Shown here: positions 14,526 to 37,911 of the stretch, piece by piece
Numbering within the stretch: position 1 is the stretch's first letter
How the letters are laid out: each line of letters starts with the position of its first letter
Virus record (IMG/VR): IMGVR_UViG_3300025282_000007
Span: 1 to 40,882 of that record
Strand: one strand, 5' to 3'
Source of the DNA: a virus
DNA length: 40,882 nucleotides
Position numbers and translations under genes: made by a program
The notes under the pieces: model-generated
Database searches by the model: none
Told to the model about the DNA's origin: nothing
Seen by the model: only the letters and a program-made list of their open reading frames with translations

Positions 14526-14955
14526 GTCGAAAGGTAAAGGTATCCCTACTGTTCTGGTCTCAGCCGAGCACTTTAATTTGGTGGCAGCATCAGCCAAAAA
14601 GCTCGGGGTCACACCATCGACCGTTGCAAACCTTGTTATCCAGTCGGTTATCGCTGCCGCCGAGCGGTCGATTGGAAGTAATCACGTTGAGATGCTCAAG
14701 GCGCAGGACGGGCCAGCGTCTACCGTTGTGCTCAACCCAATGAAGTTACCCATTTCCACCCACACAAAGCGGATTCTCTCAACAGCTGCGAAGGTGTTCC
14801 AGCTATCAGAGGAAACGATTGCACTGTGGAGCATTCACGAGATGTTGCCGGCCATCGAGCGGATTGAGCCGCTCAACCGACACACTCTACCACCGGCCCT
14901 CTACAACCGTGTGGGCCAAATTGAGCGAGGAGAACATGGCGCGACCCCAAGTTGA
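14524..14955 (+). CDS. Tandem ribbon-helix-helix-like regulator
   Basis: A 143-aa plus-strand protein with two related segments, 10-49 and 75-114, aligning without gaps at an offset of 65. Each has a short strand, a helix (LVAASAKKLG / ILSTAAKVFQ) and a second helix (TPSTVANLVIQSV / SEETIALWSIHEM), the pattern of a ribbon-helix-helix (RHH) DNA-binding unit; shared residues include Ser13/78, Lys25/90, Thr33/98, Ala35/100, Ile39/104 and Glu47-Arg48/Glu112-Arg113. RHH proteins normally dimerise, so this would be a single-chain pseudo-dimer. Likely role: transcription regulator, perhaps of the divergent late genes or of its own promoter. The last 20 bp overlap the GroES-like gene. Confidence 0.75.
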   Translation: MSKGKGIPTVLVSAEHFNLVAASAKKLGVTPSTVANLVIQSVIAAAERSIGSNHVEMLKAQDGPASTVVLNPMKLPISTHTKRILSTAAKVFQLSEETIALWSIHEMLPAIERIEPLNRHTLPPALYNRVGQIERGEHGATPS

Positions 14956-15277
14956 TATTGAACCGTTTGGCTGCCGGGTGGTAGTTGAGCGTGTGACAGA
15001 AGATGTTGAAGACGACCATGTGTTGTCGTCGGTTACGGATGACGGTGGCAACGAGGTTACTATCTACCGGCCAACAACAGCCGCCAACCCCAACAAAGAG
15101 CACGTCGGCGTTGTCAGGGCGGTGGGGGCTGAGTGCAAGTACGCAAAGCCCGGCGACCAAGTGCTCTTCGTTCGCCACCTTGGCGAGGCCACGCTGCTGG
15201 ACACCAACCTGTTGGTGATGCATGAAAATGATATATTAGGTAGAGTTACCGATACGGCGGTGGTACGCTGCGCCTGA
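14936..15277 (+). CDS. GroES-like co-chaperonin
   Basis: A 113-aa protein starting at ATG 14936 with AGGAG 4-5 bases upstream; the frame extends upstream but that part overlaps the preceding gene. Visible features of the GroES fold: strand PFGCRVVVERV (10-20, compare PLxDRVxVxR), a long acidic/Gly loop with GGNEVTIY (37-44) where the GroEL-binding mobile loop is expected, VGVVRAVGAE (57-66), KPGDQVLF (71-78) and the C-terminal HENDILGRV (97-104). Phage co-chaperonins such as T4 gp31 replace host GroES to fold capsid proteins in GroEL. The gene is in a two-gene plus-strand unit and ends just before a large hairpin. Confidence 0.85.
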   Translation: MARPQVDIEPFGCRVVVERVTEDVEDDHVLSSVTDDGGNEVTIYRPTTAANPNKEHVGVVRAVGAECKYAKPGDQVLFVRHLGEATLLDTNLLVMHENDILGRVTDTAVVRCA

Positions 15278-15345: not shown

Positions 15346-16464
15346 TCACTTCTCTCCCAGTAGGTTTTTCTCATAGATTTCTAGCATTTCCCTGTGAAAC
15401 TCTGCCACCGGTCGACCCCACACTGTTAGCGGGGCAAGCTGCACCGTCAACCTCCTAGCAAGTACAGTAATTGCCGTCGCGCTTTGAAGAGCCACGACTC
15501 CATTTCCACATGCCCGGAGCCTGTCCAGCCGAGAGGCCATCCCATCAGCATCTCGACAAATCGCGGGTTCAAGCGTCGGGTCGAGCTCGAGGATGGCTCC
15601 CCATCTTGGGTCGTTGGGACCGGGGGCGAAGAGTGGGAGACGAAATTCGGCAGCTGGTCCATGTGAGCCCGGCCCTTCGCCGTCTCGCAATGGTGCCTGG
15701 AGTTCGCCCCCTTGTAGTCTCTGGCTGCCGGCGTCGGCCATTGCTTGCTCGCGATGGTCAACGGCATCCCCGCTCTCGTGGCGTTCTCTTTCTTGGATGC
15801 GTGGTGTTCCCTCCTCTCCAGCCACCGCGCCGGGTCTTCCCCGTCGTTGTGCAGAGCCGAACATGGCGTCGGCCACTCCTGCGATGCTGCCATCAAGTTG
15901 CCCCCGCCCCTCTTGGCCTTGCTGCTGCGTGTCTCCGGTCCCCCAGTCGGGGTCTTGGGAGTGGGCCAGCAGGAAGAATCTTTCGCGTCGATGGGAGGCT
16001 CCCACGTCGGACCCTCTAAGACACATCCATTCTGCATCGAACCGCATTTCGGCCAGCGACCTGAGAACAGCTGGGAGTCCCCCTCCAGTAACGATACCTG
16101 CAACGTTTTCCAAGAAGATGTAGCGGGGTCGAACCGTGCGAATGGTCTCAACGATGTCGTCCCATAGCCAGCGCTCGTCCTTTGTTCCTTTGCGCTTGCC
16201 GGCCACACTCCACGGTTGGCAAGGGACACCTGTGCTAATGCAGTCGACCTGACCAGTGAATGGAGTGAAGTCGCAGTCAGCGAGGTCACCGCAGAAAACA
16301 GGAGCTGGCTCCAAGGCCTTCTCTTCCATCCTTGCCAAGAGAACGGACGCTGCGAAGGCTTCCCGCTCAACGTAACCCAGAGTAGTGGCTCCGGGGACTG
16401 CGAGCTTGATGCCGAGTTCGAGTCCTCCGACACCTGAGCAGAGAGATAAGACGGTAAAAGCCAC
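15346..16464 (-). CDS. Cytosine-C5 DNA methyltransferase
   Basis: A 372-aa enzyme that transfers a methyl group from SAM to cytosine in DNA. Start is GTG 16464 after GGAGG with an 8-base spacer. Motif I is LSLCSGVGGLELG (6-18), motif IV GVPCQPWSVAGK with catalytic Cys82, motif VI ENV (119-121), motif VIII HRRERFFLLAH (158-168), and a motif X-like RACGNGVVAL near 317-326. The region 170-290 between VIII and X is the target-recognition part, here low in order and rich in Gly, Arg, Gln and Glu. It ends an operon with recombinase and Cro-like regulator. Likely role: protection from host restriction, or epigenetic control. A second conserved-looking frame overlaps most of it (15447-16466). Confidence 0.9.
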   Translation of the reverse strand: MAFTVLSLCSGVGGLELGIKLAVPGATTLGYVEREAFAASVLLARMEEKALEPAPVFCGDLADCDFTPFTGQVDCISTGVPCQPWSVAGKRKGTKDERWLWDDIVETIRTVRPRYIFLENVAGIVTGGGLPAVLRSLAEMRFDAEWMCLRGSDVGASHRRERFFLLAHSQDPDWGTGDTQQQGQEGRGQLDGSIAGVADAMFGSAQRRGRPGAVAGEEGTPRIQERERHESGDAVDHREQAMADAGSQRLQGGELQAPLRDGEGPGSHGPAAEFRLPLFAPGPNDPRWGAILELDPTLEPAICRDADGMASRLDRLRACGNGVVALQSATAITVLARRLTVQLAPLTVWGRPVAEFHREMLEIYEKNLLGEK

Positions 16465-16466
16465 AC
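15447..16466 (-). CDS. Overprinted second frame of the methyltransferase (WPTP-type protein)
   Basis: On the same strand as the methyltransferase, the other frame is open for 339 codons from GTG 16466. From about residue 80 on it carries motifs I recall from many bacterial and phage proteins next to or annotated as cytosine methyltransferases: ASAKEQRTSAGYGTTS, FARFDPATSSWKTLQVSLL, FSGRWPKCGSMQNG, three WPTP boxes, AARDYKGAN and LNPRFVEMLMGWPLGWT. In the enzyme's own frame, the same DNA gives the motif IV to X region. The first ~75 residues show no such conservation. It may be a separate product, the C-terminus of a frameshifted methyltransferase, or a fossil frame. Reality as a protein is open; the motif match is seen directly. 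Confidence 0.5.
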   Translation of the reverse strand: MWLLPSYLSAQVSEDSNSASSSQSPEPLLWVTLSGKPSQRPFSWQGWKRRPWSQLLFSAVTSLTATSLHSLVRSTALAQVSLANRGVWPASAKEQRTSAGYGTTSLRPFARFDPATSSWKTLQVSLLEGDSQLFSGRWPKCGSMQNGCVLEGPTWEPPIDAKDSSCWPTPKTPTGGPETRSSKAKRGGGNLMAASQEWPTPCSALHNDGEDPARWLERREHHASKKENATRAGMPLTIASKQWPTPAARDYKGANSRHHCETAKGRAHMDQLPNFVSHSSPPVPTTQDGEPSSSSTRRLNPRFVEMLMGWPLGWTGSGHVEMESWLFKARRQLLYLLGG

Positions 16467-16666
16467 TACTCACCTCCCTTCTGGGACAACAGGTGATTCC
16501 ACACCTCGTCGGGCACATAGGCCAACAACAACACCACCGCCTTGGGTACATGCGTCTCGCCACGCTTCCACCTACTGACGACCGACTCAGAGTATCCGCC
16601 GAGCAGCAGGCCTGCTGCCTTGCAGGTCAACGAGTACTTGTCCATCCATTCGATTAGCCGTTTCAT
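16466..16666 (-). CDS. Cro-like helix-turn-helix regulator
   Basis: A 66-aa protein starting at ATG 16666, which overlaps the recombinase stop (ATGA) behind GGAGG. Residues ~14-35 (CKAAGLLLGGYSESVVSRWKRG) form a helix-turn-helix of the Cro/CI type, with S-x-x-VSRW as recognition helix. The frame is open further upstream to 16738 but that is within the recombinase gene. It is co-transcribed with recombinase and methyltransferase. It probably binds operator sites in the 17362-17915 region, where several palindromes are present. No partner CI-type repressor with a dimerisation domain is visible. Confidence 0.82.
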   Translation of the reverse strand: MKRLIEWMDKYSLTCKAAGLLLGGYSESVVSRWKRGETHVPKAVVLLLAYVPDEVWNHLLSQKGGE

Positions 16667-17361
16667 GCAACCTCCTGCTCTTTGAGGGCGGCGTCGCCCA
16701 GTTGTTTCAATCGCTTGCTTACCATCTGCTTTGACCACTTGGTGCCTACCCGTGTGCGGTAGCCGAGCGCGTTAAGAAAGTCAGCCGTCTGCTGTAGGCT
16801 GTTGCACTGCATGTGGGCAAAAGCCATCTCAATAAGCACTCGCTGTTCCACCGGTTCCTCCTCCAGTGTGTCATCCGGGCTCCACCGATAGCCGTACGGC
16901 GCGTGGTGGCAGTGCCTGACCCCGCTGGCCTTGAGCTCCTGCATTACCTCGGACGTGCGTTCGCTGATAGTTTCGCGCTCCCATTCAGCGATGGCGCCGA
17001 ATATCTTGAGAACGAATCGACCCATGGCAGTGCCCGTGTTGAAGTCCTCAGTGATGGACGCAAAGGTCCAGCCCTCACGCTCGCAGGTTTCCAGCAAGCG
17101 ACACAGGTCACTGATTGAGCGGGTTAACCTGTCAAGCTTTGCCACCACCAACACATGACCACTGCCGCCATCGTGCAGCAGCTGCAACGCGCGCTGGATG
17201 CCGGGTCTGTCGATGTTCTTGCCTGACTTGCCCCGGTCCTCGATGACCTCAATCACGTCGTAGTCATGGATGGTGCAGTAGGCTTGAAGCTTCTTGAGCT
17301 GCACCTCGGGCGAGTGCTCTTGCTTGTTGGTTGATACGCGGATGTAGAGAATTGCTTTCAT
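16663..17361 (-). CDS. Serine recombinase (resolvase/invertase family)
   Basis: A 232-aa site-specific recombinase. The catalytic domain has YIRVST (Arg8, nucleophile Ser10), the LVVAKLDRLTRS motif (71-82) and GRFVLKIFGAIAEWERETISERT (dimer helix E). After this comes a short DNA-binding part with GVRHCHHAPYGYRW and a C-terminal helical region typical of the 'recombinase' domain, but truncated compared with large phage integrases of 450-600 aa. ATG 17361 overlaps the stop of a 5-codon upstream ORF. Possible jobs are resolution of genome multimers, DNA inversion, or integration; size favours the first two. The sites it acts on may be the repeats in the region just upstream. Confidence 0.9.
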   Translation of the reverse strand: MKAILYIRVSTNKQEHSPEVQLKKLQAYCTIHDYDVIEVIEDRGKSGKNIDRPGIQRALQLLHDGGSGHVLVVAKLDRLTRSISDLCRLLETCEREGWTFASITEDFNTGTAMGRFVLKIFGAIAEWERETISERTSEVMQELKASGVRHCHHAPYGYRWSPDDTLEEEPVEQRVLIEMAFAHMQCNSLQQTADFLNALGYRTRVGTKWSKQMVSKRLKQLGDAALKEQEVA

Positions 17362-28232: not shown

Positions 28233-30404
28233 CTACGGGTCATGCCCGCCAGAGGCAAGCTCGGAGAGGGTGTGATAATTAGCGCCGTCGCTCATTACTG
28301 TGATTGTGTCGTAATTATTATCAAGCGACACTGACGTTTCACCGTCAATTGTGTCACTGCCGTCACGCGAGACCGTGATTGCGCCATCACTTGTCCCGTC
28401 GTCTACTCGCTTGATAACGAAAACAGTGCCTGCGGCGGCATTCTCCACCAAGGTTATAGTAATGCCCCTGGAGGCTACGATTACATGGTCAGTAGCTACA
28501 GTCTCATAGTTTGCTGTCTTCGCCGCATACGCCAAAACCTGGCCTGCTGACGTGAGCTTTCCTGTTGTTCGGAGCGAGCCAGCCAAAGCGCTTGAGCTAT
28601 TTGCAGCCGTAGCGTTGGGCGTAATCTCTAGCATATCCACAAAGGATCCAGATATCTTGCTGCCAATCGTAAAGTGACCGTCATCTAGAGCACTAACAGT
28701 CCACTGGTCAGCCGCCGTTCCGTCGTCGGGCTGAAGCTCCAACACCGCATCACCACTGCTTGCGCCTTTAATGGACACAGCGCTATTAGCGTGAGTCATT
28801 ATAAACGCAACAACACCCTCGCCTTTAGGCTTGATAACTGCGTTCACGTCAGCCGTGTCACCAGCGGCCTGAAGGGTAACCAGCGGGGCACCGGACGTGG
28901 CATTGGTCATTTCCCAATGGTTTACAGCGCTGGCTGTCTGGACAAACACCAGTTGCTCATTGCCGTTTGCGTCTGCAATAAACCCATCGTCTGCAATCCT
29001 GGGCGCGGTCAACGTCTTGTTGGTTAGGGTGCTTGTCGAGCTAATGGTCGGAACAACCACGCCCTCAACAGCCAGCACACCGGCAGAGCTACGGCTAAGC
29101 GTAGTGTCACTTGCGTGACCAAGCTCAAGCTCTCCAGCAACCGCTACATCATCAGCAAACGTGGCTTTCGAGTCATCGCTAATAGTTAGGGCTGTCGCGT
29201 GACTGTTTAGGGCGCTGCCAGAACCCCCTGCGTTTGCCACCCGGAAGAGGATATCTCCACCAGCTCCAGTGCCCTTGCCCTGCCCTGCTGAAATGGTGAC
29301 TGTGCCACCAGCAATGTTGTTTGTTGTACCGGCGGTGGTTGAGCCGCCTGTGATGGTGAGCGTCCTGCCCGCAACGTTATGATCTGTTGCTTCGATAGAG
29401 ACAGTTGCGTTTTGACCATCACTGAAGGCCAGGTCACCGCCCGTGACCTCCATGTCTCCCGTGACCTCCAGGTCACCAGCAATAACAACATCACCATCAG
29501 CATCAACCGTGACCCGGTCGCCATTGCCACCGGCATCGATACGGAGTTTATCTGTGGAGTGGTCGTAGTAAATCTGCCCACTGGCCACGGCTGCGTTGTC
29601 GCCAAATTGGATTAGGCCAATATTACTAGCACCGCCAGCCAGCTGAATTGAAGGCCTGGAGTCGTCCTCTGCAATGACCGTAGCCGTCGTCGAATACTGT
29701 ACGCCGCTGGCAGTATCCCGCTTGGCGTGGACCTCTGCCTCGGCCTGCTCGGTGCCAGCACCTATTCGCTCCACGCTGACGTTGCCAGGTGTCACGGTTA
29801 GGTCGCCCGTGCTTGCGCCAGTGGCAGAGGTGGTGCCCAGTACGAATTCGTCCCGGCTTTCGTCCCAGATGATGGCTGCGTTGGTTGAGCTGCCCCGTTC
29901 GATAATGAGGCCGGCATCACCCGAGGGTGTGCCAGTTATCCCGTTGCCCAGCTCGATTAGCTTATCTTCTAGGACGGTGTTGGTTGTGCTGACTGTTGTG
30001 GTCGTTCCGCTTACTGTCAGGTCACCGTCAATAACCATGTTGCCAGAACTGTCGATGTAGACCTTTTCGGCGTCATCCTCAAAGCCAAAGCGTATCCGGT
30101 TGGTGGAGTGGTCGAAGTTGATGCTTCCAGCGTTAGGATGGGCGTTATCGCCAAACTCAATAATGCCGATATTGTTAGCCGAGCCAACAAGCTGGATACC
30201 AGGCCTTGTCGCATGTTCGATGATTACTGGCTGATTGAGCGCAAACTGAGGGTCAGCAGCAGCCACCCCAGTAACGTGAAGGGGCTGCTGGGGACTGTCG
30301 GTTCCGATACCAACGTCTCGGTTGATTGTTCCGTTAGAAAGGTCTTCTGCGGCTTCAGAGCCCTCATTAGACACAAAGTTTCTATTTACTGGAAGTCGGG
30401 CCAT
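28233..30404 (-). CDS. Tail fibre-like protein with repeated beta module
   Basis: A 723-aa protein, ATG 30404 overlapping the previous stop (TAATG) with GAGG upstream. It is beta-rich and low in Cys and Trp, with the 'DGDLTVSG' type of motif found in phage fibres. Residues 68-133 and 250-316 are a clear internal duplication (IQLVGSANNIGIIEFGDN against IQLAGGASNIGLIQFGDN). The rest has more strands of this kind (GDMEVTGGDLAF, VPTISSTSTLTNKTL). The C-terminus (DNNYDTITVMSDGANYHTLS) resembles that of other fibres. No chaperone motif of the S74 kind is visible. It probably binds the host surface. Confidence 0.83.
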   Translation of the reverse strand: MARLPVNRNFVSNEGSEAAEDLSNGTINRDVGIGTDSPQQPLHVTGVAAADPQFALNQPVIIEHATRPGIQLVGSANNIGIIEFGDNAHPNAGSINFDHSTNRIRFGFEDDAEKVYIDSSGNMVIDGDLTVSGTTTTVSTTNTVLEDKLIELGNGITGTPSGDAGLIIERGSSTNAAIIWDESRDEFVLGTTSATGASTGDLTVTPGNVSVERIGAGTEQAEAEVHAKRDTASGVQYSTTATVIAEDDSRPSIQLAGGASNIGLIQFGDNAAVASGQIYYDHSTDKLRIDAGGNGDRVTVDADGDVVIAGDLEVTGDMEVTGGDLAFSDGQNATVSIEATDHNVAGRTLTITGGSTTAGTTNNIAGGTVTISAGQGKGTGAGGDILFRVANAGGSGSALNSHATALTISDDSKATFADDVAVAGELELGHASDTTLSRSSAGVLAVEGVVVPTISSTSTLTNKTLTAPRIADDGFIADANGNEQLVFVQTASAVNHWEMTNATSGAPLVTLQAAGDTADVNAVIKPKGEGVVAFIMTHANSAVSIKGASSGDAVLELQPDDGTAADQWTVSALDDGHFTIGSKISGSFVDMLEITPNATAANSSSALAGSLRTTGKLTSAGQVLAYAAKTANYETVATDHVIVASRGITITLVENAAAGTVFVIKRVDDGTSDGAITVSRDGSDTIDGETSVSLDNNYDTITVMSDGANYHTLSELASGGHDP

Positions 30405-30873: not shown

Positions 30874-33800
30874 CTATTCTCCTCGCTTTAACCGTCCAAC
30901 ATGCCTACGTCGTGCCCTGGCAATACGAATGATTTGCCTATCGTACCATGTCGTCAGATTGTAGTCCTTGTCCATTTCAATCGCTGAATCTAAAGCATCA
31001 TCACCCACGAGCTCAAGCTCTCTAACCATTTGGGCAGCACGCGCAAACTCTTTGCGCTTGTTCATGGTGTTGATAATTGCCTCATACGTTGCCCTCTGGT
31101 GCTCATCGGCCCAACCCTCTCCGTTTTGATGCGCCTGCTCTTCAACAAGTGAAAACACGTCCTTGAATCCGGTCCAGTCGTCAGCACCAAACGCGGCCTT
31201 TTTGGCCCTTAAAATCAACGCCTTGCGCCGCTTAGAGTCGCTTTTGAGCTGCACTTGTTTTCTTTGTATGTCGTACGCGGTGTCTCGTCCGAGGGTTTTG
31301 TATATTTGCCTTCGGGCCCCAAAGCGTTGAATCATGTTTTCCAAAGTGTAGTGCCGGGCGGCTTCAGACTCGGCCACCTCTTTGTCCAGCGCCTGGGGCG
31401 TCACCTCGGGCATTATGCGCCCCTGGTCCCGAGCCTGTTTGCGCGCAACGGCATAGAGGTCTTGGAGTGCCACCCGCAATTCGGCCGGCGTAGAGGCATA
31501 CCGCTCCTTGTTTTTTGCATACCGCTTCTTCAGCGCTTTGATTTGGTCTAGCGCGCTGCCGCCGCCAGTTCTTCTGCCCGCCTTTTCGTGCTCCTCAAAC
31601 TGTTGTTCACTGCGGAGCAGTGGGTCGAACTCCTTGAGGTCCACACCCAGGCCAACTGCCAAAAAGGCTTGCCATGGCTTTTCGTCAATGCCGCGACCGT
31701 AGCGAGGGCGGCCGAGTTCATCTGGTCCCCAGAACCTGAAGCCACTGTCACTAATGCGTTGCCAGGCGTAGCCACCGGGTGCGTAGCTAGGGCTAACCGT
31801 TTGCCAGAAGTGGTCCCACATCTTGCCGCCCCACTTCCATTTTTGTGGATCGTCTTCTGGGAGTTTTGTGTGGAAGTACGGGTGCTCATCCATGACGCCA
31901 TACAAAAAGACAGAGAACATCGGGTGCTCACTACCCCCAACTCGTTGCAGCCACTGCCCCGTGGACTCGTCTTTTTGCCTAAGCAGGCGCCCGCCAATTC
32001 CATACTTCAGGGCGTTGAAATAGTTCTCGGCCCCGTCTGAAGACTCCGCGAGCTCAGGAAAGAACTGCCGCACCATCGCCATTTTGTTTTCAGCGTAGTC
32101 GGGGAGCTCTTCCTTCATGGCTTTCGCGCGCTCCTCTGTCATGTTTGATTTGCGAAAGTTGATGTCGGTCATTGACTCATACATCTGCATCCACATTCTT
32201 GCCTGCAACGGCTTTGCTTTTAGCCACTCAAACATCATGGGGATGGTTGTTGCGTCAAAGGCCAAAAAGGGCTTGCCCAACCAGTGCGTTGAAATAAGCC
32301 TCATAAACCCAGCCATTTCTTCATAGCGCGCAAAAGCCCGCCGCCCGAGCTGGGCCGCGTAGGCGTCGTCAAGGAATTGGTAGTAGCCACCCGCCCCCCG
32401 GCCAGTGCTAACGCCAAGCTTCGCCTCGCCCTCATAGGCTTGCTTTAGAAACTTTATCCGCCCCTGCTTTATTAGGTTGGCGCGCTTGGCTTTGCCCATG
32501 TAGCGCCCCGTCTTTAGGAGAAACAGCGAGAATCTAAAGAAGTCGTCGCCAGCGCTGTAGGCCAGGCCCGGAAGGTCGTAGTTAAGTTGTTTGAAGGCCT
32601 TGCCAGCGCCTTTCCAGTTGCCGGTGACTGTCGATTTAAACATTTCGCCGCCAATGCGGATACCCTCTTTGCCCCTGTTGATGGCGCCAAACATCATGTG
32701 GCCAAACGCCTGCTGGGCGTCGGTGACCATTTCAATTCTATTCAGGGCTCCGGCAGGACTGCCGCCAGAATTGATCCACGCCTGGTAGTGTTTGCTTCGC
32801 GCGCCCAAGACAAATTCTTTGCTCGCCATTTGCATGGATCGGAGGGCCCTTGGATCCCAGGGGCTAAGTCCATGCATTGGCCCTAAGAACAGGAGATTGC
32901 TCAGGATATTCGTTGCATGCACCGCTGGATTTAAGGCCGTTTTCATGGCTTTCCAATAACTCAAAGCCTTGACCAGGGGGTGGGATGTTTGCTTCTGCAT
33001 AATGCCCATCCCCTTGAAGTCCCAGTAAATGTCAGGGTGCAGATAAAACTTGTCAGGCAGCTCGGTTCCGAACTTACGAAGGTCTGTGCCGGCAATCGTT
33101 GAGTTGTTTACCTCGTACCAGCCCTGCTTTTTAACGCGAGAAAACATCGTGTTGTCTTCGCTCATACGCTTCCACATTCGCGCAGTAGCAATGTCACGCT
33201 TTTGATTCATCATGCCGTTCATGACGAGGTCTTGGAGCTCGCCACTCATGCCGTACTGCCCAATGCGATCCTCAATGGAAATACCAGACTCCGGGTCACC
33301 CAACTTTCGCTTGCGCTCTGCGGCGCCCTTCAGACCCTCAAACGTCTGGTGCCCGTAAAGATTTGTCTCAACAGTCTGAAAGGTTCGCAGCTCTTCGGAC
33401 AACCAGGTGTCCCACTCTTTGTCAAAAGCCTTTTTCTGGCGCTTGGTCATCTGCTTGTAGTTTCTCAACACCTTTTGGTCGACTATCTTTTCCTCAAGGC
33501 GCTTTTTGGTGGCTGCGCGCCTCCCTTCGCTTGAGTACCAGTTGCTCGCCCAGATTTCGTACAAGTTGTCTGTGTTGCGGAGCAGCTTCATTTGAAGCGA
33601 CTGAAGGGTCAGCTCCTTAGATAGGTCAACCGCCATGTCATACTTGTTTGCTATACGCACCCACGACTCATAGCCTTCAGCGTTTGGCGCCCCCTCTCGA
33701 ACCGCAAAACGAGAGCCAGATGGTGCGTGGGCGTCCCGAGTTACGTTTGCCACAACCTCAGCATGCTCATAATGCAAGGCGTCAAACACCGTTTTTTGGC

Positions 33801-36800
33801 GGGCCTTCATCTGTTTTGGCCTCAAGTCTCTAACCCGCAAAACCTCACCGGCCTCGAGGACCAGCCTTTCCGGGTCCAGCCGCGCGTTTTTTACGCTGTT
33901 TTGGAGCTCTGAGATTTCAGCCCGCAGCCCCTTGTTTGCCGCGCGAATAACACCGTCAATGTGACTTAGTTTTTGACCAACAGACCAGTCAAGGTCTTTG
34001 TACTTTCGCATCAGGTGGATGTTCAATACCGAGCCCCTGCTGGTGGCAGACTCCATAATTGCACGCAGGAGGTCTTGCTTTTGAAAGACAAAGGACCGAG
34101 GCAGATGATGCCAAAAATCAGCGCCATGCTCTGTGATTAGCATTTCAATTTGCTTTGTGGCCTTTTCGGCGGTGGCAAATGCGTCTGGAACCTTTGACGT
34201 AGCCTCAACAACAAAAGCATCGGTTGAGCCGGCCAGGTTTCTTCTGACAAGGTCAAGCTTGTTATCTCGAACGATTTCCTGCTTGATGCGCCACTTTGGT
34301 TTTAGTGTTGTGGCGTACCTTGCGGCAATGGAGTCCAGGGTGTCACCCGCAGCAATCTGGTAGACGTCGTACTCTGACACCTCCTTCAGGTATTGCTGGG
34401 CCCGGAACTGAAACTCGGTTACCTCGGCCTCTGCTTCGCGCTGAAGGGCCCGCCTGGCCGCAAGATTCGCGTTGTTGCGGTTCCTCGTCCAGTATCGCTG
34501 GGCCATGGTCCACTCGTGTAACCGCTCGCTCTTAAACGGAACAGCCCCCTCGGCCAACCCATAGTTGTCTATCCAGTTATTTCGGTATCGCCACGCTTGC
34601 GTGGCTGCGGTGAACGGGTCGGAAAAACGCATGACGTGACCAAAGAAGGCCTCTACTTTTTGCCACATTAAAGCGCGGTCCATCAGCTCCGCAACGTCAG
34701 CGGAGACACCCCTGCGCTGCACCTCTGCCCGGCGCCTTGCCCTCTCTAGCTTTGTAACACCCGCGTCTCCGTATTGCGCTTGTCTCGGCAGGCGGGCTGC
34801 CGTGGTCTCCGTTTCGACGGCCTGGTAAACATCCTCAAGCGCAGAGCGCGCCCCCGCACCTCGCTTTTCTGCCGCCCGGAGCTCGCTTGCCGCCTTGGAG
34901 ATTTCTTGCCTGGTGGCCTGCGCGATGTTTTTTGCAGCTCCAATCGCGTCGGCGTTTGCCGCAGCTCGCAAGGCGGCGTTTTCTTCTGCGCCAGCGAGCC
35001 CGTTTTTGTGGAGCCGCTTTAGGTCTTTGAGCACGTATCTTGGCTGCGGAGCTGACCAGGGGTTGTGTTGCCCGGCCATTTGCCGCAGGCGCTCAAGGTC
35101 GGCAATGTCGCTCGGGGTCCACTTTTGGCCCGTTCGCTTGCCCAGCCTTCTCAGGTCTCTTTCGGTTATTTCACCCCTGGTCAAGCGCTCTCTCATGCGG
35201 CGGGGAAGCCTGCCACCAAGCCTTGCGCGCAAGCTGTTCCACTCAATTGTAAACTCAGAAAGCGTCATGTCCCATGGCGCGCGAAAAGCCTGCTGTACAA
35301 CGAACTCTGGTATCGCGGCTCGGGCCCCGCCAGGAAGCCACTCAGATGTAACGGCTGCTGCCATTTGCGGAATACCCCCAGCCTCTGCCACCGCAAATCC
35401 CGGAGCCGCAACCGCCGCGCCCTCGTTATAGAAACGAGAGAGCTTGTTTTCAAAGACCTTCAGCCCCTCTACTGCGCCCTGGTCCTGCAAAACGCGCCGG
35501 ATTCGCTCTCTAAACCGCCATGCCACTTCGTTGGGTATTGAGTCGAAGGCGGCGTTGATGCGGGACTCCAGTGTTTTTATTTGTTGCAGTGAGGCGCTGC
35601 TGGCCCGCCCCGCCGCCTGCGCTTCCGCTGCCTCGGCCATGAGTTTGTCGAGTTCGGCCATTGGGGCAACAAGCCCCTTTAGCTTGTTGACAAGCGCTGC
35701 CTTTGGCTCGCCATCCAGCTTCATCCACTTGCTGAGTTGCTCGGGGGACATTGTGGTGTTTGGTGGGGGCCGCCAGTTAGGGTTGTTTTTTCTGAGCCAC
35801 TGCTGGGCGCGCAACACCTCGGCGTCGGCGGCGGCTATTTCTACGTCGAGCTCGGCCATAACCTCAAGGGGGTCACGGTGTCGGCCTTTGTACTTGTGCT
35901 TTTGCCCTGCCACAACCTGCTCGCCGGGGGTGAAAAGCTCGGCGACGGCAGGGTCAGCAGCCGCCCGGCGGTGAATGCCCCTTGGCACTAAGCCGCCCTC
36001 AATTGCAGACTCAAGGTGAAGGTGCGCCACTTTGTATGTTTGCAGCTTGGTTTGAGCCGCCTTCGTTTGTTCCTCCAGCTCGTGCAGTTCTTTTTTCACC
36101 CTCTCTCGTATTTTGGTTCGATCCCACTTGGGCGTCACAGCGCCGGCCGGGTCGCGAGCTGGCACCTGCTTTAGCTCATCCATGCGAGCGAGATTGCGTT
36201 CTATTAAGGCCTCAACGCGACCTATCTGGGAGGAGAGCCGCTCACCAACCACGGCGGTCGTCTCGTTGCCATACTCGGCCACGCGGAGCATTCCAGCCCT
36301 GTCCAGGCTGCGAGCAACTCTTGCGGCCGAAAGGGCCTTCAGCGGGGCGAGTACTATAAGCGGGTCGGCCACGGTTGCAATCAGCCCCCGGTCAACATAG
36401 TTACCCCACCGCATGCTGACTCCCTCATGCAAGTGCTCTCCCACGTGCGCTGAGATGTCTGCCCCGAACTTGCCAATTTCGGCCAGCTTGGCCTCAAACG
36501 GGTCTCGCCCGCCAAGGTATCCAACGGCAGAAAATGTCATGGGAACAAGCATAACCAGCCCCTTAACCTCTTCTGCCGTGTTGTCCCAAAACTCTCGCCG
36601 GCCAAGGGATAGGATTGGGTTAAATCTTGTAGCCTCCCTGGTGGACTCAGCCATGGGCCTTGCCCACGGGTTTAAGTACTGAAGAAGGCTTCGCCCCTCG
36701 AGCTCCTCCCAGTGCCCCTGCTCATCACTTGCAATGGCGCGATAGCTCTCGCCCCGGATAAAAGACCGCTCAATTGCATAATCCGCAACGGAGCCCCAGT

Positions 36801-37911
36801 CCATTCGGACGTCACCGGTGAGCGCGCCAGCTGGCAAAGCGTTGAAAACAGCATCTGAAACATCGGGAAGTCGTGAAACAATGTTGTACACCACGGGGAG
36901 ACTGCCGCCCTCGGCAGGCAATGCGGACTGTAGGTTGTGGCCCCACTGTGAAATAAACTCACTGTCAACAGCATCGCCAAACTTAGCAATAACCTTGCCC
37001 GTAAACGCCATCTTGGCAAACACGGCGCCCGTGATAAGCCTGCCCGTCCAGTCAAAGGGGTCTTCCAAAAAGGACGGCGAGTCAACAACCCGCTGAAGCT
37101 TGCGGGCCTTCATTTCATCAACCGTCATGTCTTGGAGAGGAACCCCCGCAACCTCTTGGCGAACTATTACGGGCTTACCGCCCCGCCCGCGCATGGCGCC
37201 GGATCGTCCCTCGTCCCACCCTTGAACCACGTCGCCGTAGTTGTATGGGTCGGTGGAAACCGTCACCGTTCTAGCCGGCCTCATCTCCGGGCGGCCCGTC
37301 TTGTAGAGAATCCGCTGCTTGAACGCGGCCCAGCTCTCATCCTCTTTTTTCTGCCAGTCCTTTATTTCGTCCCAGCGTATGGTGCGGTCTTCTTGGCCTG
37401 GGATTGAAAGCGTCCACCACTGCTGGCCGCTTCCATACGAGCGCGCGCCATATACACCTTTTTGAGGAGTAACCGCCGGCATCCACTTGGCCTTTTCGGC
37501 AAAGGTGTCTTCTCCGGGCTCCAGCTTTGAGGCCTCGGCAATCGCTTGGTTGGTCATATACCAGGGCCGGTACCAATCGGCTGTTTTTTCAAAGCCCGGC
37601 GGCTCGCCCTCCTTGCCGCCAAACAGCGCTCTCTGTAGTGCCGGTTCACCGCCAAGGGCTTCTTCAAGGGCAGATATGGCTGGCCGTGGGGGTTCGGTAA
37701 GGGCCTGCTCGCCAAGCATTCTCTCGGAGAAAGCGTCAAGCCCCGGAGGTCGGTCTATTTCCTGCTCGTAGTCAAGGCGGGTTTTTTTACGCCGTCCGCT
37801 GCGATAGCGCTTTTTAGGTACGTCATAAACGGAAAGGTCCAGGTCAAAGTCCTGGGTTGACCCTTCGCCGCCAAAGTCGCCGGTTGACCAGCCGCTACGC
37901 CTTCGCGCCAT
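30874..37911 (-). CDS. Giant internal virion protein with LysM-like segment
   Basis: A 2345-aa protein, about 17% of the genome, with ATG 37911. The N-terminal ~250 residues are charged. Long helical stretches with coiled-coil traits fill 550-1100. Near 1175-1225 there is a LysM-like module (YQIAAGDTLDSIAARYAT). The C-terminal third has YWKAMKTALNPAVHATNILS and LGPMHGLSPWDPRALRS, as in the large polyvalent internal proteins of phages, and Trp-rich stretches to the end. No transglycosylase Glu motif could be assigned by eye. Such proteins are packaged in the head and ejected to form a channel. Role inferred from size, order and family style. Confidence 0.85.
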   Translation of the reverse strand: MARRRSGWSTGDFGGEGSTQDFDLDLSVYDVPKKRYRSGRRKKTRLDYEQEIDRPPGLDAFSERMLGEQALTEPPRPAISALEEALGGEPALQRALFGGKEGEPPGFEKTADWYRPWYMTNQAIAEASKLEPGEDTFAEKAKWMPAVTPQKGVYGARSYGSGQQWWTLSIPGQEDRTIRWDEIKDWQKKEDESWAAFKQRILYKTGRPEMRPARTVTVSTDPYNYGDVVQGWDEGRSGAMRGRGGKPVIVRQEVAGVPLQDMTVDEMKARKLQRVVDSPSFLEDPFDWTGRLITGAVFAKMAFTGKVIAKFGDAVDSEFISQWGHNLQSALPAEGGSLPVVYNIVSRLPDVSDAVFNALPAGALTGDVRMDWGSVADYAIERSFIRGESYRAIASDEQGHWEELEGRSLLQYLNPWARPMAESTREATRFNPILSLGRREFWDNTAEEVKGLVMLVPMTFSAVGYLGGRDPFEAKLAEIGKFGADISAHVGEHLHEGVSMRWGNYVDRGLIATVADPLIVLAPLKALSAARVARSLDRAGMLRVAEYGNETTAVVGERLSSQIGRVEALIERNLARMDELKQVPARDPAGAVTPKWDRTKIRERVKKELHELEEQTKAAQTKLQTYKVAHLHLESAIEGGLVPRGIHRRAAADPAVAELFTPGEQVVAGQKHKYKGRHRDPLEVMAELDVEIAAADAEVLRAQQWLRKNNPNWRPPPNTTMSPEQLSKWMKLDGEPKAALVNKLKGLVAPMAELDKLMAEAAEAQAAGRASSASLQQIKTLESRINAAFDSIPNEVAWRFRERIRRVLQDQGAVEGLKVFENKLSRFYNEGAAVAAPGFAVAEAGGIPQMAAAVTSEWLPGGARAAIPEFVVQQAFRAPWDMTLSEFTIEWNSLRARLGGRLPRRMRERLTRGEITERDLRRLGKRTGQKWTPSDIADLERLRQMAGQHNPWSAPQPRYVLKDLKRLHKNGLAGAEENAALRAAANADAIGAAKNIAQATRQEISKAASELRAAEKRGAGARSALEDVYQAVETETTAARLPRQAQYGDAGVTKLERARRRAEVQRRGVSADVAELMDRALMWQKVEAFFGHVMRFSDPFTAATQAWRYRNNWIDNYGLAEGAVPFKSERLHEWTMAQRYWTRNRNNANLAARRALQREAEAEVTEFQFRAQQYLKEVSEYDVYQIAAGDTLDSIAARYATTLKPKWRIKQEIVRDNKLDLVRRNLAGSTDAFVVEATSKVPDAFATAEKATKQIEMLITEHGADFWHHLPRSFVFQKQDLLRAIMESATSRGSVLNIHLMRKYKDLDWSVGQKLSHIDGVIRAANKGLRAEISELQNSVKNARLDPERLVLEAGEVLRVRDLRPKQMKARQKTVFDALHYEHAEVVANVTRDAHAPSGSRFAVREGAPNAEGYESWVRIANKYDMAVDLSKELTLQSLQMKLLRNTDNLYEIWASNWYSSEGRRAATKKRLEEKIVDQKVLRNYKQMTKRQKKAFDKEWDTWLSEELRTFQTVETNLYGHQTFEGLKGAAERKRKLGDPESGISIEDRIGQYGMSGELQDLVMNGMMNQKRDIATARMWKRMSEDNTMFSRVKKQGWYEVNNSTIAGTDLRKFGTELPDKFYLHPDIYWDFKGMGIMQKQTSHPLVKALSYWKAMKTALNPAVHATNILSNLLFLGPMHGLSPWDPRALRSMQMASKEFVLGARSKHYQAWINSGGSPAGALNRIEMVTDAQQAFGHMMFGAINRGKEGIRIGGEMFKSTVTGNWKGAGKAFKQLNYDLPGLAYSAGDDFFRFSLFLLKTGRYMGKAKRANLIKQGRIKFLKQAYEGEAKLGVSTGRGAGGYYQFLDDAYAAQLGRRAFARYEEMAGFMRLISTHWLGKPFLAFDATTIPMMFEWLKAKPLQARMWMQMYESMTDINFRKSNMTEERAKAMKEELPDYAENKMAMVRQFFPELAESSDGAENYFNALKYGIGGRLLRQKDESTGQWLQRVGGSEHPMFSVFLYGVMDEHPYFHTKLPEDDPQKWKWGGKMWDHFWQTVSPSYAPGGYAWQRISDSGFRFWGPDELGRPRYGRGIDEKPWQAFLAVGLGVDLKEFDPLLRSEQQFEEHEKAGRRTGGGSALDQIKALKKRYAKNKERYASTPAELRVALQDLYAVARKQARDQGRIMPEVTPQALDKEVAESEAARHYTLENMIQRFGARRQIYKTLGRDTAYDIQRKQVQLKSDSKRRKALILRAKKAAFGADDWTGFKDVFSLVEEQAHQNGEGWADEHQRATYEAIINTMNKRKEFARAAQMVRELELVGDDALDSAIEMDKDYNLTTWYDRQIIRIARARRRHVGRLKRGE

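Follow-up and report, generated by a model that had tools for sequence, protein, structure and literature searches.

To our knowledge, two real genes rarely share a long stretch of the same strand outside small viruses, and where they do, gene finders suppress one of the frames. In the C5-cytosine methyltransferase M.EcoHK31I, the gene of the beta polypeptide is reported, by Lee et al. in 1995, to be nested within the alpha gene in another frame. M.EcoHK31I (YGGCCR) is made of two polypeptides, alpha carrying motifs I to VIII and X together with the predicted TRD, and a smaller second polypeptide carrying motif IX (PMC3404938). In M.AquI (CYCGRG), also a two-polypeptide C5 methyltransferase, one polypeptide holds the catalytic half and the other the recognition half (PMC3404938). 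Phage methylase genes may contain out-of-frame ORFs of another kind, such as the hidden HNH endonuclease of the ShiLan domain (PMC11855218), and artificially split methyltransferases are already in use for targeted DNA methylation (PMC3439449). In the open-access literature on overlapping methyltransferase genes in phages, we found no description of the arrangement that is the subject of this work, a locus that very probably encodes a two-subunit phage C5-cytosine methyltransferase, with its subunits in overlapping frames of the same DNA.

We analysed the window, i.e. the whole 40,882-nucleotide stretch of the virus record IMGVR_UViG_3300025282_000007, in which two overlapping frames of the minus strand are both open (Table 1). 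Frame 2, that of beta, is the +1 frame relative to frame 1, that of alpha, and the overlap of about 1 kb is near complete, virtually all of beta lying inside alpha. Both coding sequences begin within the pentanucleotide GTGTG, behind a single Shine-Dalgarno sequence, GGGAGG, with a spacing of 6 nt to the GTG of beta and 8 nt to that of alpha (an alternative GTG for alpha is at 16473). The first G of GTGTG doubles as the final base of the TAG stop of a short upstream ORF, an overlap that makes translational coupling likely. Judged from the window gene alone, the open +1 frame is mildly improbable: its longest open run reaches 338 codons, against 46-185 codons for 22 other genes of the window, and over the whole gene the +1 frame has 3 stops for 6.3 expected (P ~0.05); the strong statistics come from the relatives. 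Four further IMG/VR contigs (L002-L005) have the same locus, with 100% identity over beta, and probably represent one virus present in several samples. As for its surroundings, a GroES/Cpn10-like co-chaperonin gene adjoins the methyltransferase on the opposite strand, and a serine recombinase/resolvase gene immediately precedes the short helix-turn-helix-like ORF and the methyltransferase. The window also codes for a 723-aa protein with a lectin-like domain, possibly a carbohydrate-binding virion protein, and for a 2345-aa protein without any Pfam match.

Table 1. Features of the methyltransferase locus and of other genes mentioned in the text (positions in the window)
Feature	Position	Strand	Basis or remark
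Frame 1, open reading frame	15346-16563	-	
Alpha, predicted C5-cytosine methyltransferase catalytic subunit, GTG start 16464	15346-16464	-	PF00145 1.9e-30; phrog_363 1.5e-53; motif positions; open frame
Beta, +1-frame ORF (frame 2), 339 aa, GTG start 16466	15447-16466	-	phrog_1008 8.9e-35; conserved, open and start-anchored among relatives
Short upstream ORF, weak helix-turn-helix similarity	16466-16738	-	PF13560 only 0.19; phrog_21356 3.7e-4
Shine-Dalgarno GGGAGG	16473-16478	-	Read directly in the sequence
Twin start GTGTG (beta GTG 16466, alpha GTG 16464)	16462-16466	-	Sequence; offset -2
Alpha motif IV GVPCQ, catalytic Cys	16216-16230	-	Transferred from the identical locus L002
Alpha motif VI FLENV	16102-16116	-	Same DNA reads SSWKT in beta
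Alpha motif VIII RERFF	15973-15987	-	Motif position
Beta WPTP repeats	15729-15968 (15957-15968, 15864-15875, 15729-15740)	-	Frame 1 is here a weakly conserved open linker
Beta motif-IX-like LNPRFVEMLMGWPLGWT	15522-15572	-	Same DNA reads LEPAICRDADGMASRLD in alpha
Alpha motif X RLDRLRACGNGVV	15493-15531	-	Motif positions; frame-switch analysis
GroES/Cpn10-like co-chaperonin	14915-15277	+	PF00166, 5e-5
Serine recombinase/resolvase	16663-17361	-	PF00239, 4e-43
723-aa protein, ricin-type beta-trefoil lectin-like domain	28233-30404	-	PF14200, 1.3e-5
2345-aa protein	30874-37911	-	

An earlier sequence-only reading of this DNA had seen two open frames on the same strand, each with motifs of a recognizable family, and this stands: both frames have their family match, that of beta, phrog_1008, being named 'DNA methyltransferase', and the quoted peptides are all present, with FARFDPATSSWKTLQ, three WPTP boxes, AARDYKGAN and LNPRFVEMLMGWPLGWT located in beta. 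The C5-cytosine methyltransferase (PF00145) motifs I, IV (PCQ), VI (ENV), VIII and X that it had placed in the enzyme frame are likewise all in frame 1, with the correction that the target-recognition region and motif IX, which PF00145 enzymes hold in the same chain, are missing from alpha and found in the +1 frame, where LNPxFVExLMGWPxGW has what we take to be a resemblance to motif IX of the family. The same partition, with PCQ, ENV, VIII and X in frame 1 and WPTP and LNPxFVExLMGxPxGW in frame 2, is seen in the window and in relatives of ~25-50% identity. Motifs of frame 2 overwrite motifs of frame 1 (SSWKT/FLENV, LNPRFVE/LEPAICR), and the first WPTP comes directly after RERFF, at the beginning of the stretch between VIII and X. 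Searches of Pfam and NCBIfam with beta matched no family, and in a search of PDB profiles its sole match was the MS2 coat protein (0.003, over a short stretch), which was taken as chance. Alignment of the beta profile with fused mycobacteriophage chains (hhalign) matched WPTP-IX (98.3%, E 1.1e-14), which indicates homology of this beta module with the recognition region and motif IX that the single-chain methyltransferases of mycobacteriophages carry in frame. The model of a fused chain is that of a C5 methyltransferase (pTM 0.74), with M.HhaI as best match (E 2e-14) and with the WPTP part of low confidence. The AlphaFold model of beta alone (pLDDT 57.8) is too poor for a fold search and gives no fold evidence; this might be what is expected of an obligate subunit.

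That frame 2 is maintained can be seen in relatives that were gathered by pattern-based scans with the motifs of alpha alone. Of the best 80 loci by similarity, 78 were assessed, and 77 of these have a +1 frame that stays open over 160 codons or more, where synonymous shuffling usually predicts several stops. When the shuffle test was applied from motif I to VIII to 61 nonredundant loci (<85% identical), the +1 frame had 18 stops for 160 expected and a conservation of z=57, against 370 stops for 383 expected and z=23.5 in the third (+2) frame used as a control; because this control too is high, relatedness must inflate part of the z=57, and it is the contrast between the frames that counts. 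The sequence-only reading had considered that frame-2 stops throughout the homologues, with no purifying selection, would speak against it, and the opposite is seen. With beta held fixed in 85 loci, it is the alpha frame that is found to be kept open in the WPTP-IX region (2 stops for 103 expected), where APGPxDxxW and LEPAxxRxADG are conserved and the WPTP region weakly so. Around motifs II-III, the excess of +1 conservation is 0.57-0.89 in overprinted loci against 0.07-0.15 in non-overlapping control relatives, and between motifs IV and VI the same comparison gave no excess. Both phages and prophages harbour relatives with the overlap, many being from Alphaproteobacteria. A quick, unrooted tree separates most of the loci with a full overlap from the others at a well-supported branch, with 4 changes to which it gives no direction.

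The start sites follow the same trend. An ATG or GTG of frame 2 lies at most 5 nt from an ATG or GTG of frame 1 in 88 of 100 nonredundant loci with an open frame 2, while the control third frame has a start as close in 2 of 100. Three offsets cover all 88 loci: -2 (ATGTGG or GTGTGG, 42 loci), the commonest and that of the window, +4 (ATGAATG, 29 loci) and -5 (17 loci). The shared start site that had been noticed in the sequence is real and conserved, with the reservation that the two codons are not identical, as they overlap in GTGTG. Such twin starts point to one ribosome-binding site that serves the two proteins, each initiated on its own.

Along the gene, selection changes frame. In 168 close pairs (76-96% identity), the shares of differences at positions 1/2/3 of the frame-1 codons are.25/.16/.59 in motifs I-IV,.26/.16/.58 in motifs VI-VIII,.61/.19/.21 in the WPTP region,.47/.22/.31 in the stretch before IX,.62/.20/.17 in motif IX and.25/.08/.67 in motif X. 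The most variable positions are thus third positions of frame 2 in the WPTP region and in LNPxFVExLMGWPxGWT, and third positions of frame 1 in I-VIII and X. Since position 1 of frame 1 is position 3 of frame 2, this pattern indicates that both frames are maintained, with selection acting on frame 2 in WPTP-IX and on frame 1 in I-VIII and X. An earlier ungapped comparison of the catalytic region alone had given the same picture as non-overlapping relatives, and it is the full-length analysis that located the frame switch. The position-3 share in motifs I-VIII (.56) matches that of relatives without full overlap (.58), so that over short times only a weak constraint acts on the ~140 N-terminal residues of beta; for this part, the argument comes from the avoidance of stops, from conservation at long range and from the start.

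On the best reading, beta would be one subunit of a heterodimeric C5 methyltransferase, the one for recognition and motif IX. Alpha would ensure AdoMet binding and catalysis (motifs I-VIII) and provide the closing motif X, its stretch from VIII to X remaining mainly an open linker, and beta would bring the WPTP target-recognition region and motif IX. Initiated separately at twin start codons from one ribosome-binding site, the two subunits would come together in a single active enzyme, in the manner of the alpha and beta polypeptides of M.EcoHK31I. From the sequence, we infer that beta is translated from its own start, that it assembles with alpha and that the complex methylates cytosine; by analogy with the usual role of phage methyltransferases, the enzyme would shield phage DNA from host restriction. 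The dual coding put forward by the sequence-only reading is thus supported by the relatives, with the difference that the second protein would not be an unrelated overprinted gene, but the recognition/IX half of the same enzyme.

Natural variants divide this enzyme in other ways. In two loci (L075 and L082), alpha stops after VIII and frame 2 includes motif X, an arrangement like that of M.AquI; in another (L069), IX and X are in frame 1 and LPTP in frame 2; in L091, all motifs are in frame 1 and the +1 frame is interrupted by stops. This last locus is identical to a mycobacterial prophage methylase, and in 399 phage records the match extends over 80% or more of its protein. Overlapping genes are present in deposited records, the Xanthomonas phage PhiXhv-28 having a pair of CDS that overlap on one strand and are each named DNA methyltransferase, and the mycobacteriophage JangDynasty having overlapping gp6 and gp5. 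Within the L096 locus, a third frame resembles an HNH endonuclease by its CxxC and HH motifs and recalls the hidden HNH insertions of PMC11855218. Finally, L057 and L071 have many frame-1 stops between VIII and X, with an intact frame 2, and X is left as a separate frame-1 piece; that motif X is cut off from alpha goes against the two-subunit model, which in its simple form does not explain it.

A rival explanation of the locus is a single polypeptide made by programmed frameshifting, beginning in frame 1, slipping by +1 after VIII into the WPTP frame and coming back after IX to reach X. The tiling of selection from frame 1 to 2 and back to 1 fits such an enzyme, single-frame fused versions exist, and in L057 and L071 frame 1 alone cannot join VIII to X. 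This is nonetheless very unlikely, as frameshifting needs neither a frame 2 that is open and conserved back to a start beside that of alpha, as it is in 88 of 100 loci, nor a frame 1 without stops across the WPTP region beyond the rare exception; it would be exceptional for each protein to require two efficient shifts, and the close precedent, M.EcoHK31I, acts as two polypeptides (PMC3404938). The idea of a frameshifted enzyme with an alternative target-recognition region, also present in the sequence-only reading, was right on the content of frame 2, and versions fused in a single frame do exist in mycobacteriophages; it is the frameshift itself that we doubt. That a ribosome zigzagging between frames through two programmed shifts makes a single chain, besides or instead of separately started subunits, is highly improbable.

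It is also highly doubtful that beta is no subunit but an independent protein which overlaps by chance and acts, e.g., as a regulator or against host restriction: its N-terminal ~140 residues are indeed without known relative and conserved above control near motifs II-III, but its WPTP/IX part appears homologous to the recognition/IX part of fused methyltransferases, and motif IX is missing from alpha itself. Barely conceivable is the view that the WPTP proteins are mere +1 readings of a conserved methyltransferase, the wrong-frame calls that had been envisaged beforehand. Motifs of frame 2 do share the DNA of motifs of frame 1 (SSWKT over FLENV, WPTP over V-A-D/H-A), so that some conservation carries over, and the open frame of this gene alone is only mildly unusual; yet stop depletion and start conservation are specific to the +1 frame, changes in WPTP and IX concentrate at the third position of frame 2 (168 pairs), the breaks of frame 1 in L057 and L071 leave frame 2 intact, and fused relatives read the WPTP/IX module in frame 1. 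We rejected this view on account of the frame-specific stop depletion, the twin starts and the substitution pattern. A fossil was rejected because, over WPTP-IX, constraint is stronger on frame 2 than on frame 1.

We may come back to the heterodimer and to what it would mean. A whole clade of methyltransferases of dsDNA phages and prophages retains a near-complete overlap, with a selection that visibly changes frame along the gene. The recurrent WPTP proteins, termed 'hypothetical' or 'DNA methyltransferase', would be explained as recognition subunits, and the annotation of a methyltransferase in either single frame would be that of half an enzyme. The nested, AquI-like and fused forms make a natural series for how an enzyme can be divided between frames.

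When set beside M.EcoHK31I, the locus is alike in its motif layout, with I-VIII and X in alpha and motif IX in a second ORF, predicted to yield the second polypeptide, that lies in another frame within the alpha gene, as is said of M.EcoHK31I. It is unlike it in that the beta frame holds the conserved WPTP recognition sequence, alpha being a weakly conserved linker there, in that the overlap spans nearly all of both genes from twin starts, and in that the gene belongs to phages and prophages, with no restriction partner identified within the window. The locus would work like M.EcoHK31I, a membership that is not fully established as the recognition sequence sits in beta and the comparison is one of descriptions. 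L075, L082 and JangDynasty gp6/gp5 resemble M.AquI in having a separate gene, here in the +1 frame, for the recognition half; M.AquI has IX and X together on the second polypeptide, as L075 and L082 have in frame 2, unlike the window, where frame 1 keeps X and the overlap takes in nearly all of both genes. The single-chain methylases of mycobacteriophages (ShiLan, prophiGD91-2) have a homologous catalytic domain and a homologous LPTP recognition region with motif IX, but all in one frame, the +1 frame being interrupted by stops (L091). The hidden HNH of the ShiLan domain shares with our locus an out-of-frame ORF in a phage methylase of the same wider family; it is a mobile insertion, whereas the second frame of the window would be the enzyme's own recognition half. 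What differs from M.EcoHK31I is the near-total overlap, the twin starts at one ribosome-binding site, the large clade of phages and prophages, and the sister variants that are AquI-like or fused.
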